NCBI GenBank assembly: GCA_001769535.1
Contig: MEOH01000028.1
Location: forward strand, 1 to 64,000
Length of the DNA: 64,000 nt
DNA from: Bacteroidetes bacterium GWF2_38_335
GTDB lineage: Bacteria > Bacteroidota > Bacteroidia > Bacteroidales > GWF2-38-335
Reading direction: 5' to 3'
Shown here: positions 21,421 through 56,594 of the stretch, one piece after another
How positions within the stretch are numbered: position 1 is the first letter of the stretch
Layout: every line of letters begins with the position of its first letter
The notes under the pieces: model-generated
What the model was told of the DNA's origin: nothing
Seen by the model: the letters and a program-made list of their open reading frames with translations, nothing else
Databases searched by the model: none
Position numbers and translations under genes: made by a program

Positions 21421-21543
21421 CCATTTCCGCCGGAAAATTACCTCTTTGTTTTAATGAGTTCATGGCCGGCGGGTTTGACCACGATCTTCCCACCCCGGCT
21501 TGAAAGCCGGGGCTGAATTAAGGCGGCCCTACAGGCCTATGCA
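21421..21543. repeat. Modular triple-palindrome intergenic element, copy 2
   Basis: CCATTTCCGCCGGAA...GGCCGGCGG...CCCCGGCTTGAAAGCCGGGGCTGAATTAA...GGCCCTACAGGCC. Confidence 0.75.
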
Positions 21544-36759: not shown

Positions 36760-37326
36760 ATGAAAAAAATTGTAATATTTGCTTCAGGATCAGGGACTAA
36801 CGCTGAAAACATAGCGAAGCACTTCCTGAATACCATTGACACCCGTGTAACCCTTATCCTGTCTAATAAGCAGGATGCCTATGTTTTTGAACGGGCAAAA
36901 AAACTTAGCATTCCGGCTGTATATTTTGAAAAACATGACTTTTATCAGTCCGATAAAGTTATCAACATCATCAGGAAAGAAGATCCTTCTCTAATCGTCC
37001 TGGCCGGTTTTCTCTGGCTCATACCGTCGGAGCTGATCAGGAGTTTTGAGGGACGCATTATTAATATACATCCCGCTCTGCTGCCAAAATACGGAGGAAA
37101 AGGAATGTACGGAGATGCTGTACACCGCGCCGTGGTTGAAAACGGAGAAAAAGAAACCGGTATTACAATCCATTTTGTTAATGAAGTATACGACGAAGGG
37201 AAAATTATTTTTCAGGCAAAATGCTTGGTTCACCCCTCCGACACACCCGAAATTGTGGCGCAGAAAGTGCATGAGCTGGAATATGAGCACTTTCCGAGGG
37301 TTATTGAGGGTTTGCTGAAAGGATAA
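36760..37326 (+). CDS. purN: Phosphoribosylglycinamide formyltransferase
   Basis: FASGSGTNAENI, INIHPALLPKYGGKGMYG, GITIHFVNEVYDEGKII. Confidence 0.95.
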   Translation: MKKIVIFASGSGTNAENIAKHFLNTIDTRVTLILSNKQDAYVFERAKKLSIPAVYFEKHDFYQSDKVINIIRKEDPSLIVLAGFLWLIPSELIRSFEGRIINIHPALLPKYGGKGMYGDAVHRAVVENGEKETGITIHFVNEVYDEGKIIFQAKCLVHPSDTPEIVAQKVHELEYEHFPRVIEGLLKG

Positions 37327-37334
37327 TTATTTTC

Positions 37335-37398
37335 ATCCGCAAAATTCACATGAATTTTGCGGATTGACCAGAAGAATTCATTGGAATTTTGCGGTTTG
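37335..37398. repeat. 64-bp flanking direct repeat, copy A
   Basis: ATCCGCAAAATTCACATGAATTTTGCGGATTGACCAGAAGAATTCATTGGAATTTTGCGGTTTG. Confidence 0.9.
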
Positions 37399-37448
37399 CC
37401 ATTAAACAGGACTTATAAAAACATGTTTATTAATAAATTAAGCTTGTA

Positions 37449-38573
37449 TCAGGAGGAAATAAATGATTCGTAATTGTCCCTTGAAATAACACTGGTGGTT
37501 TTTGGCTTGTATTTTTCAACAAACGAGTCGGGAAAACGATATTTTGAGGTGGTTTTCCATTTTATTTCATAAGCATCCAGGCTGGAGCCGTTTTGCTCTA
37601 CCAGATCTATTTCCTGTCTGTTGTGGTTTCTCCAGAAATAAATTTTTGTGTTTATCTTTTCATTATTTAGAAATTTAACCCTTTCGCTTATAATGTAGTT
37701 TTCCCAAAGCTGACCAATATCATTGCGCAGGTCAGGTTTGTTAAAATTATTAATCAGGGTATTTCTGACACCGTTATCAAAAAAAAATATTTTCCTGAGA
37801 TTTTTTAGCTCGTTCCTGGGGTTGCTGCTGTAGGGAGAAACCCTGAAAAGGACAAAGCTTTGTTCAAGCAGGTCGATGTATCGCTCAACAGTTTCATGAT
37901 TTAGTCCGGTCAGGTTGCTCAGTTCATTATAGGAAACCAATTGTCCTGTTTGAAAGGCAAGCGCCTGAATCAAACGTACCATTTTATCGGACTTTTTTAT
38001 TTTATTGTTTGAAAAGATATCCTTGAACAGATAGGAATCAACAATTTCTGAAAGAACAGCGGTTTCATTGCCCGGATTGGATATCACCTCGGGGTATGAA
38101 CCGAAAATCAAACGGCTTTCCAGGGCGTTTAATTCATCAAACAATCCAAGATGGTTTTTTAGTTCATTAAAGGATAAGGGAAAAAGAGTAAAAACCGTTT
38201 TTCTTCCTGTTAATGGTTCGTTGATTTTATTGGCCAGATCAAAGGAGGATGATCCAGTTGCAATAATTTTAACCGGTAATTCATCCAAAAGGATTTTTAA
38301 TTTAATGCCAATATTATCAATACGCTGGGCTTCATCAACAATCAATAGATCTTTATCTGCAAGAGTCCGTTTATACCTTTCCAGTGAAGTATGGTTAAAA
38401 AATTGCTGGCCTTCAAAGGTATCGGCATTGATCCAAAGCACCTTTTGATTTTCCTCAATGAGATGTTTCAGCAATGTGGTTTTTCCCGTTTGCCTTGCTC
38501 CATAAAGGATAAGCGCTTTTCGTGAGCCAAGGTTGTTCCGCAGTAAATGTGAAAGGTGCCGTGGTATTTTCAT
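37449..38573 (-). CDS. AAA+ ATPase with DUF4143 domain
   Basis: LILYGARQTGKTTLLKHL Walker A, LLIVDEAQRI Walker B, IIATGSSSFDL, C-terminal DUF4143 nuclease-like FWRNHNRQEIDLV. Confidence 0.92.
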   Translation of the reverse strand: MKIPRHLSHLLRNNLGSRKALILYGARQTGKTTLLKHLIEENQKVLWINADTFEGQQFFNHTSLERYKRTLADKDLLIVDEAQRIDNIGIKLKILLDELPVKIIATGSSSFDLANKINEPLTGRKTVFTLFPLSFNELKNHLGLFDELNALESRLIFGSYPEVISNPGNETAVLSEIVDSYLFKDIFSNNKIKKSDKMVRLIQALAFQTGQLVSYNELSNLTGLNHETVERYIDLLEQSFVLFRVSPYSSNPRNELKNLRKIFFFDNGVRNTLINNFNKPDLRNDIGQLWENYIISERVKFLNNEKINTKIYFWRNHNRQEIDLVEQNGSSLDAYEIKWKTTSKYRFPDSFVEKYKPKTTSVISRDNYESFISS

Positions 38574-38590
38574 ATCAATTTGCAATTTCT

Positions 38591-38654
38591 ATCCGCAAAA
38601 ATAATATAAATTTTGCGGTTTGACCATAAATATTCATAAGAATTTTGCGGTTTG
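38591..38654. repeat. 64-bp flanking direct repeat, copy B
   Basis: ATCCGCAAAAATAATATAAATTTTGCGGTTTGACCATAAATATTCATAAGAATTTTGCGGTTTG; gap-free 54/64 match to copy A. Confidence 0.9.
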
Positions 38655-38690
38655 AAATTTATTTAGCATGATTTAACGCCTTAAGGATAT

Positions 38691-41165
38691 TTATTCAATT
38701 GTTTCGCCTCGGATGGTTTTTTCCCATAATCCAGGACAGTAATATTTTTTGATGTAGGCATCCCCGGGAACAATTTCGAGGTTTTTCACGAAATATATTT
38801 TTTCAAGTGCCCCTAGAGAACCGTCAAAATAGCCCTGAGGATTCATTATAACATAGTTAGCAGAATCCAGGAATGTAATTGAGATGATTTCTTTATTTGG
38901 AGTAATTTCATTTATAGCAGAGGAAAACTCTTGTAGTTTTTGTTTTGAATTAATCATTGTAAATAATATATTGTTTTTCAAATAGGACCAATCCAAATAA
39001 AAGGAATTTTTAAACTGGTCAATTGTATCACAATTAAATAAGTTCATGATTGTTTTCTGCTCATCAAAATATGAATAAATCAAAAAGTTGTCATTGAAAT
39101 TTTCTAATTCAAAATCATTATAATCGTTTAAAAAACTACAAGTCTTAGTTATTTCTCCATTAGATAAATCTATTTTTGAAATTTCAATTTTATCATAAAA
39201 ATTATTCAGGCAAAACGCATATTTTGAATCATTTGAAAACTCTATATCGTCGAAAGCATTGAAATGATAAATTTCTGAAAGGGTTTTGCAATCCCAAATA
39301 GAAGTTCCTCCGCGTAAGTCCGAAATAGTGGCAAAGTATTTCCCGTCCTGACTGAAAGAGACCATTTTAATTCCATAATGACAATTGAAAGGTACTTCTC
39401 CGGAGTCCAAATCATAAATAGCCGTGCCTCCATCTAAGTGCCTGACTAATATCATATTACTTTTTGGAAAAAAATTATATTCACACCTGTGTCCCAAACT
39501 CCTTACACAACCCGGTTTAAAATATTGAGTGACAAATTTGAGCTTCCCTGTTTGAGCATCCCAAATTCGGATTATCGGGTCAAAGGAATTGGAAACTATG
39601 CTTTTATCATCGGGACTAAATTGAACATCCCAGGTTTCTGAATTATGACCTTCCATTATATTAATCAGTTTTCCGGTTGCAGATTCAAAAACCCTTATTT
39701 TTTTGTCCAGAGATCCTGTTACAATGTACTTTCCATCATGACTGTAACTTGCGGAATTTCCTTCTATAACTAGAAGTTGTTTGCCTGTATGATAATCAAA
39801 AACCCTCGTGTTGTTTTGTGCGATTAAAACTTTTATACTATCAGGACTATAGGACAATGAGTAAAAATAAAACCCATCATTAATAATTGAGTCAAGGTTT
39901 CGGCCTGATGAGGATTCAATCAGAATAGAGCTTTTATTTGTTTTAATAGAAATGTATTTGCTGTCGGGACTGTATTCAATTTTTTCAATTGAACTTTTTA
40001 ATTTTACTGAATAGTCCATCATTCCATTAGTAAGATTCCATGATGCAATTGTACCAGTGCAAGGATTAAACGAAATTAGTTGTTTGCCATCGGGCCTCAT
40101 AGCTCCAAAATAAGGACAAAAACATGTGTCTGAATATAAATCAAATACCTTTTTCCCGGTTAAGGTTTCATATATTTTTATTGTGTCATAAGGCATATGT
40201 TGATTATAAACAGGAGTTTCCTGTAGTGGAATAACATATTTGCAATCTGGACTAAAATGGCAGCTATTAGCATATAAACCAAATATATTTTCAAGAGCAC
40301 ATATTTTTTTCCCGCTTTGGCCATCCCATATTTCACAATCCGGGTTATTAAGCAAGGTCATTTCTATACCCTTTTCAACAAGAGTTCTTTCAGAATTTAA
40401 ATCAATAGATGAGGTAAAAATAAACTGGCCATTTGGGCTAAAACATGTATAATTGAGCCAACTAAAAGTTTTATTAATTGAAAAAAGTTTTTTTCCGCTT
40501 AATGTTTCACGGATTATAACTTTTTTGTTACGTAAATGGGCATCAATAATTCTTTTGTTATCAACATTTAATTCAGTCGGAAATGTGTAATATTTCCTTT
40601 TTTGAGTTCCTTTTTCTGCATGCAAAATTCTTGATATATAATTATTGGATTGTGCTACAAGATATTTTCCGTTTTCAATGGAAGATATAGAAATAATATC
40701 CTTTTGGCTTTTCCTTATCCTATGGATCAATCTTCCTGTTTGTACATCCCAGATATAAGTTATATTATCAGCATAAGCAACAATGAATTTATTATTCTGA
40801 ATAAATTGCGGATCGAATGCTTCTTCAGGATAATTTTTCAGTTTCGATAATATTGAACCTTTATATGTATCCCAAATAATGGCATTATTATAGGACACTG
40901 ATATAATATATTTTCCGTCAGGACTGAAATCAGCATATTGGACTATTGATTTATTTCCAATAAGTGTATTCAATAGTTTCAATGTTTTACAATCCCAAAT
41001 TTTAATTGTAAAATCATTTGAAGCAGTAATAAGGTATTTATTATCAGGGCTAAAAGAAATAAAGTTAATATTGTCTTTATGCCCAGTCGACACAACCAGT
41101 TCAGCATCCTGAGAATGATTAATAAGCCATGAAATAATAACTAATATTGTCAAATATATTTTCAT
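38691..41165 (-). CDS. WD40-repeat secreted protein, apparently lacking a C-terminal caspase-like domain
   Basis: Multiple SPDxKYI..S.D..IxIWD repeats; C-terminus YVIMNPQGYFDGSLGALEKIYFV...YYCPGLWEKTIRGETIE. Confidence 0.88.
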   Translation of the reverse strand: MKIYLTILVIISWLINHSQDAELVVSTGHKDNINFISFSPDNKYLITASNDFTIKIWDCKTLKLLNTLIGNKSIVQYADFSPDGKYIISVSYNNAIIWDTYKGSILSKLKNYPEEAFDPQFIQNNKFIVAYADNITYIWDVQTGRLIHRIRKSQKDIISISSIENGKYLVAQSNNYISRILHAEKGTQKRKYYTFPTELNVDNKRIIDAHLRNKKVIIRETLSGKKLFSINKTFSWLNYTCFSPNGQFIFTSSIDLNSERTLVEKGIEMTLLNNPDCEIWDGQSGKKICALENIFGLYANSCHFSPDCKYVIPLQETPVYNQHMPYDTIKIYETLTGKKVFDLYSDTCFCPYFGAMRPDGKQLISFNPCTGTIASWNLTNGMMDYSVKLKSSIEKIEYSPDSKYISIKTNKSSILIESSSGRNLDSIINDGFYFYSLSYSPDSIKVLIAQNNTRVFDYHTGKQLLVIEGNSASYSHDGKYIVTGSLDKKIRVFESATGKLINIMEGHNSETWDVQFSPDDKSIVSNSFDPIIRIWDAQTGKLKFVTQYFKPGCVRSLGHRCEYNFFPKSNMILVRHLDGGTAIYDLDSGEVPFNCHYGIKMVSFSQDGKYFATISDLRGGTSIWDCKTLSEIYHFNAFDDIEFSNDSKYAFCLNNFYDKIEISKIDLSNGEITKTCSFLNDYNDFELENFNDNFLIYSYFDEQKTIMNLFNCDTIDQFKNSFYLDWSYLKNNILFTMINSKQKLQEFSSAINEITPNKEIISITFLDSANYVIMNPQGYFDGSLGALEKIYFVKNLEIVPGDAYIKKYYCPGLWEKTIRGETIE

Positions 41166-41392
41166 CAGGATGATCAATAATTTTTATTTAAAAATAGGGT
41201 ATTTTATTATTTTTTCCCATAATTATTTTAAAATATTTCGATTAATGGACATTCATTTATGGAATAATCTTAATGCAACAAATACTGCTGATGTTTTGCA
41301 GGAGAGGCAAGTTATGCGTCTCTGCTGCAATTTGTTCATAATTTTGTTGGTAATTAACAAATACCTGACTTAATCCCCTTTTGTTTTCGTGT

Positions 41393-56249: not shown

Positions 56250-56490
56250 AGCATCAACACAGGGCAGCGCCCTGTGAAAAAACCAGTCATGAACATCGGG
56301 CTGAAAGCCCAACTCTATTCAGCCCGGGGCTGTGCCTCCGCTAAAGCTTCAGCGACACGCGGAACGCCCCGGGTATGAATGAGCAAAAAGATTGCGCCCT
56401 GAAAGGCATGCCTTTCAGGGCGCCGGAATATCCTCCGATTTTTTAACCCAAGGCGCTGCCTTGGGCTGAATTGAGCCGCCCTTTCAGGGC
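56250..56490. repeat. Cluster of GC-rich palindromes
   Basis: CAGGGCAGCGCCCTG, GCCCTGAAAGGCATGCCTTTCAGGGC, CCCAAGGCGCTGCCTTGGGCTGAATTGAGC.. Confidence 0.75.
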
Positions 56491-56594
56491 TTTTTAATAA
56501 CCAACCTATCAACCACCACCCTTTTTGCGCCGGTTATTTTAACAAGATACATTCCGTTTAATAATGAAGAAATGTCTATTTCGTATTTCACCCA
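56484..56594 (-). pseudogene. Orphan T9SS C-terminal sorting-domain remnant
   Basis: Minus-strand WVKYEIDISSLLNGMYLVKITGAKRVVVDRLVIKKP* preceded by an in-frame TAA. Confidence 0.75.

Follow-up and report, generated by a model that had tools for sequence, protein, structure and literature searches.

An ATPase gene between two copies of a dyad repeat

The window analysed here, a stretch of 64,000 nucleotides from Bacteroidetes bacterium GWF2_38_335 (assembly GCA_001769535.1, contig MEOH01000028.1, positions 1 to 64,000), contains on its minus strand a gene for an ATPase of the candidate defence family PDC-S01, and this gene stands between two direct repeats, copy A past its stop codon and copy B before its start codon. 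A preliminary description had reported one AAA/DUF4143 ATPase gene flanked by repeats that align without gaps (37335-37398 against 38591-38654, 54 of 64 positions identical), and this holds exactly, as do the start codon, the distances of both copies to the gene and that of copy A to purN; Pfam places AAA_14 (expectation value, E, 1e-28) and DUF4143 (E 3e-38), both over cut-off, in the protein. The match extends to 37329-37403 and 38585-38659 (81% over 75 base pairs, bp), and a BLAST comparison within the locus gives E = 1e-14 for copy A against copy B. The locus comprises the following features:

37452..38573, minus strand: AAA_14-winged helix-DUF4143 ATPase gene, 374 amino acids, ATG at 38573, stop codon at 37449-37451; PADLOC family PDC-S01 (Pfam, PADLOC, AlphaFold2)
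38585..38659, minus strand: copy B, predicted operator upstream of the ATPase gene with a pair of dyads spaced 32 bp and half-site AAACCGCAAAA in gene sense (81% match to copy A; 32 bp is the best-scoring offset upstream)
38596..38603, minus strand: TATTTTTG, a -7 promoter box of the Bacteroidota type (TAnnTTTG), 30 bp upstream of the start codon and overlapping the final operator box (sequence; homolog operators)
37893..37901, minus strand: codons of N225-H226-E227 at the start of the predicted recognition helix, the top covarying columns for half-site bases 4, 6 and 5 (column scan; helix 226-238 in the AlphaFold2 model)
37329..37403, minus strand: copy A, second operator copy 3' of the stop codon, same orientation, without a gene of its own (repeat match to copy B)
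36760..37326, plus strand: purN, left neighbour, convergent; fabF-purN is conserved in relatives, the ATPase gene absent there
38691..41177, minus strand: WD40-repeat protein, right neighbour

Each copy holds three boxes, at 37337 (CCGCAAAA), 37355 and 37387 (TTTTGCGG) in copy A and at 38593, 38611 and 38643 in copy B. The window has two occurrences of CCGCAAAA-N5-13-TTTTGCGG where shuffles predict 0.01, and the TTTTGCGG box pair is found, in the entire 5.27-Mb genome, only in copies A and B. Two aspects had escaped the first account: the boxes belong to two dyads spaced exactly 32 bp apart, and the -7 box (38603-38596) overlaps the last box of copy B. No Rfam family of structured RNA matches the repeat locus. 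Elsewhere in the window, the Acido-Lenti-1 RNA family (RF01687) has two matches above its gathering score (21493-21538 and 56447-56491, both plus strand).

The protein matches PADLOC profile PDLC04789 (PDC-S01) over its full length (E 1.7e-148; residues 1-372 against positions 1-373 of 375), and its AlphaFold2 model (mean predicted local distance difference test score 91.7) predicts helix 226-238 to be the recognition helix of a winged helix. The Walker A and B residues (G25..G30 K31; D80 E81) are invariant in 36 sequences, as are the PD-(D/E)XK-type residues E291, D323 and K338 of the C-terminal domain, with E336 nearly so. AAA and DUF4143 were the only domains detected, with nothing transposase- or recombinase-like in the protein; a search of the PDB by sequence returned nothing significant, and the viral contigs searched contained no relatives. 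The genome itself carries nine DUF4143 genes. PDC-S01 has been described as a candidate defence gene, the fourth commonest defence across prokaryotes: a single, very abundant gene in which an ATPase is fused to a PD-(D/E)XK-type domain, and whose candidate status comes from genomic embedding, experiments being pending for most such candidates (PMC12988326); no experiment on its anti-phage activity turned up. Among individual loci in rumen genomes it is reportedly the most frequent (PMC13356809).

A 32-bp spacing is shared among homologs

The inverted-direct-direct CCGCAAAA motif occurs in none of the 387 other genomes of the class, an exact search of all 388 matching only the window's own genome, and we rejected a fixed mobile repeat on this ground. 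Nearly all homolog upstream regions nevertheless contain at least two near-identical dyads of differing sequence (GCGATTGTAATCGC, GGGATTACATTCCC, GAGTTATAACTC and GGATTATAATCC among them), each subfamily having a palindromic sequence of its own. When repeats were scored in the 130 bp before the start codon at spacings from 12 to 80 bp, none preferred beforehand, 61 of 115 non-redundant homologs had their best repeat at an offset of exactly 32 bp and another 11 at 33 bp. With the score required to be at least 12, a 32-bp repeat is present in 54% of homologs with at least 37% identity and a 33-bp repeat in 9%; every other spacing from 26 to 39 bp gives 0-2% in these closer homologs, and 222 other promoters from the same loci, which served as a control, give 0.5%. 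The 32-bp repeat was seen again in two later sets of unseen genes (47/52, then 72/100), and at least four further paralogs in the window's own genome have such repeats, each with its own sequence. A Treponema relative has the 32-bp repeat; relatives from Thermus, from Wolbachia and from Azotobacter and Agrobacterium plasmids lack it.

The 32-bp layout is general in the family, and the CCGCAAAA letters are private to the window gene. The preliminary description had held that absence of the motif near homologous genes would speak against its proposed cassette; the letters are indeed absent there, but the architecture is kept, and the conclusion survives because the operator sequence diversifies gene by gene.

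Long arrays of at least three units of 32 or 33 bp lie upstream of single ATPase genes at loci L105, L110, L068 and L062, and several 22-bp tandem units upstream of a distant DUF4143 gene (L075) suggest another spacing class. Adjacent ATPase genes occur within one genome at L188 and L193 (contigs C41 and C81 of G458); at L188 the two neighbours differ in both recognition helix and operator. On a Bacteroides finegoldii plasmid (L337, NZ_OY725962.1), a 40%-identical relative with an upstream repeat offset of 33 bp immediately follows an rteC-like gene; the surrounding region, with tet(Q), an ATP-binding protein and a sigma-54 regulator, resembles that of CTnDOT-type conjugative transposons.

The repeats overlap the promoter

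Of 193 homolog operators, 150 carry a TAnnTTTG box inside the repeats or directly behind them, usually 20-35 bp upstream of the ATG, and the box is found within the last 100 bp in 198 of 278 cases against 7% in shuffles. This position relative to the repeats places the operator on the core promoter.

Operator bases covary with recognition-helix residues

Read outward from the dyad centre, the half-site is NAA[T/C]C-X-N-AA. We scanned all protein columns against each half-site base in 154 non-redundant sequences, and the best columns were N225 for base 4, E227 for base 5 and H226 for base 6 (window numbering); for base 5, E227 carries 0.92 bits of excess information, and no column outside the helix exceeds 0.30. 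The window protein and that of locus L234 both read N-H-E-T and have the common half-site AAACCGCAAAA. A Pedobacter protein reads D-N-Q-T, and TCAC and TCGC are the operator matches for the helices D-K-N and D-N-Q. The chemistry of these pairings is familiar: Asn goes with A, Lys with G opposite C, and Glu with C opposite G.

A rule for residue 227 (Lys for C, Asn for A, Glu or Gln for G) was fixed before held-out genes were fetched, and a second version, which adds residue 225 and also lists Asp for G (one gene), was fixed before a second held-out set; half-sites in this second set were called blind to the protein, by a caller that replaced a noisy word count after the first set. Residue 227 then predicted base 5 correctly in 40 of 51 genes against 15.8 by permutation (p <= 5e-5, the permutation floor), and in 33 of 42 where the nearest training protein was less than 70% identical, while residue 225 predicted base 4 in 38 of 48 against 26.2. 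A tree that omits the helix-turn-helix region has over 50 changes of the residue and over 50 of the base; of 29 independent pairs, 18 agree with the rule on both sides and not one is reversed, so relatedness does not account for the covariation.

Operator and gene share the boundaries of homology

In 230 of 333 homolog pairs with at least 75% amino-acid identity, DNA homology is confined to the operator and the open reading frame (ORF): the left edge of the homologous block has its median at -66.5 from the ATG (the operator edge is at -66), and the right edge at stop-2 (quartiles -7 and +2). In Flavobacteriaceae, pairs at 92-97% amino-acid identity share no detectable homology in the 3.5 kb flanking each side, whereas Pedobacter pairs at 89-94% identity keep 0.7-3.4 kb of common flank on each side; in three pairs at 88-94% nucleotide identity (L122/L130, L135/L149 and L136/L137), similarity is lost over a few to about twenty bp at each edge. 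Because homology is limited to operator and ORF while the flanks are unrelated, the operator with its gene appears to be what moves, and is, judging by these alignments, a unit that changes place between genomes.

The ATPase gene lies between convergent neighbours in 44 of 90 cases. In eight relatives, purN was found mostly beside fabF, with the ATPase gene never adjoining; the ATPase and WD40 genes are both absent, and because the neighbours differ, the comparison of purN-WD40 junctions proposed at the outset gave no exact empty junction in these eight. Joining the L123 flanks gave no clean empty site, the right flank being matched from a few bases past the stop codon and the left one not conserved. 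There was no general signal of target-site duplication (5.88 against 5.70), and individual candidate cases occur at L021, L056, L102 and L263.

Ten of 187 homologs carry a downstream operator copy, and each such copy has the same orientation. The idea of a mobile or autoregulated single-gene cassette stands insofar as operator and gene appear to move together and self-binding is strongly supported by the covariation, but the two-sided bracketing from which it arose is uncommon. Since homology as a rule extends no further than the stop codon, such bracketing is not the usual mobilisation end that had been suggested; copy A is secondary and not a regular end of the moving unit. At L056 and L263 the duplicated block takes in host sequence, and the order of elements differs among the L021, L056 and L263 duplications; the downstream copies at these three loci may be duplicated loci minus one gene, or traces of insertion. 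Beyond the downstream operator copy of L021, the 3' end of a neighbour reading as argB is duplicated in degraded form. Two tandem, distant DUF4143 genes at L079 (G049:C168, 396-1349 and 2308-3261) have identical match scores and are possibly a recent duplication or an assembly artefact.

Probable autoregulation and its alternatives

We are confident, though short of certain, that the gene and copy B form an autoregulatory module in which the protein binds its own promoter through its winged helix. Binding to its own operator is proposed because half-site bases covary with recognition residues, and the gene itself is the evident target because its genome holds no other tandem site; the preliminary suggestion that the repeat is an operator gains the 32-bp architecture on the gene's own promoter and this covariation as its sequence-based support. 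It is very probable that the ATPase binds its own promoter, and the simplest role for it there is autorepression. The winged helix would read the half-site through the three residues at the start of its recognition helix, and the dyad spacing of 32 bp, equal to three helical turns, would allow two or more protein dimers, or a larger assembly that depends on ATP, to sit across the 32-bp register over the -33/-7 promoter. Bound protein would then shut off transcription of its own gene (switching it on seems less likely); we infer the sign of regulation, the oligomeric state and the role of ATP. A subfamily-specific operator with a matching helix would let many paralogs share a genome without cross-talk, the operator and gene would relocate between genomes as one unit, and copy A would be a rarer by-product, either a locus duplication minus the second gene or an insertion trace.

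Several observations weigh against this account. About 30% of homologs have no clear 32-bp repeat, and in the first held-out set, where the crude word count did the scoring, 13 of 21 genes were predicted correctly with 7.3 expected by chance (p 0.0055). The code has gaps (G accompanies Glu in 19 of 30 cases and Gln in 6 of 12), and residue 226 sets base 6 only loosely. Covariation, moreover, is coevolution of protein and site and does not give the sign of regulation, and the putative binding to the gene's own promoter could serve mobility instead of repression.

In one alternative reading, the operator serves above all as the end of a one-gene mobile element, promoter control being secondary, and the ATPase with its PD-(D/E)XK-like domain binds, cuts and moves operator and gene. 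We give this somewhat less than an even chance. The confinement of homology to operator and ORF, the bare flavobacterial copies beside Pedobacter pairs that keep their flanks, the conserved nuclease-type residues, the candidate duplications of neighbouring host sequence at L021, L056 and L263 and the frequent position between convergent genes are all consistent with it; however, about 95% of copies have no matching right-end site, the Pedobacter copies are vertically inherited, and neither a general target-site duplication, a clean empty site in the searches nor a domain of transposase or recombinase type was found. This reading and autoregulation are mutually compatible, and we offer, with more doubt than conviction, their combination: PDC-S01 genes as minimal mobile elements of one gene and its cognate operator, in which an ATPase-nuclease controls and moves itself through a three-residue code while operator and helix co-diversify and copies ignore each other. 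Rather unlikely in our view is that selection alone draws the boundaries, with larger pieces transferred and the co-transferred flanks deleted or diverged, operator and ORF being the sole functional parts. It is indeed always the functional DNA that is retained, and some copies do sit at a conserved locus, yet pairs at 88-94% nucleotide identity end abruptly at both edges, and neutral decay would not be so even.

An RNA element (a leader structure or attenuator), which the preliminary description had also allowed, would suit palindromes directly upstream of a gene, but we consider it very improbable: the dyads cover the predicted -7 box and the DNA upstream of it, 20-35 bp ahead of the start codon, and so mostly fall outside the transcript, Rfam offers no match, and the bases covary with a predicted DNA-recognition helix. 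It is possible, although we lean against it, that PDC-S01 is an ordinary single-gene anti-phage system whose operator silences it until infection. The PADLOC family match, the combination of an ATPase with PD-(D/E)XK-type residues, and the mobile, patchy distribution with many paralogs point that way; membership of PDC-S01 among defence systems, however, rests on co-location.

Relation to known systems

Likeness to PDC-S01 consists of a full-length profile match and a single-gene ATPase with a PD-(D/E)XK-type domain; the difference is that PDC-S01 is described as a defence candidate, whereas the operator, the code and the moving unit come from the present analysis, and the open papers searched, which leave most subscription journals and all preprints outside, contain no description of these three for PDC-S01. 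The 32-bp operator rule and the three-residue code would be the family's first concrete molecular handle, making the DNA partner of many members predictable from sequence. If PDC-S01 is above all a travelling gene that addresses itself, present tallies of defence systems will have to be revised; if it is defence, the operator shows the means by which the gene is silenced and by which dozens of paralogs escape cross-talk.

The nearest solved folds are the archaeal Walker-type ATPase PABY2304 (PDB 2qen), with an AAA-type domain and a winged helix (Foldseek E 6e-8; 16% identity to the window protein, template modelling (TM) score 0.51), and the Orc1/Cdc6 initiators, whose winged helix binds DNA (Foldseek E 1e-6; 13% identity, TM 0.29). 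We know of no gene-specific tandem operator at the own promoter of either. The transposition ATPases TnsC, MuB and IstB have a distant AAA+ fold similarity (Foldseek) and an association with movement, but work alongside a transposase that is a separate protein and on elements whose ends are defined; neither such a transposase nor such ends were found for the window gene.

A further parallel is offered by the autoregulated controller proteins of restriction-modification systems, likewise products of mobile genes with their own operator on the promoter, tandem dyads and matched specificity. Those controllers are small one-domain helix-turn-helix proteins beside separate nuclease genes, whereas the window protein unites ATPase, winged helix and nuclease-like domain in one chain and has a rigid 32-bp spacing. 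The protein family of the window gene is known; what is newly seen is its self-addressed operator system, one that is categorically new only if self-driven movement holds.
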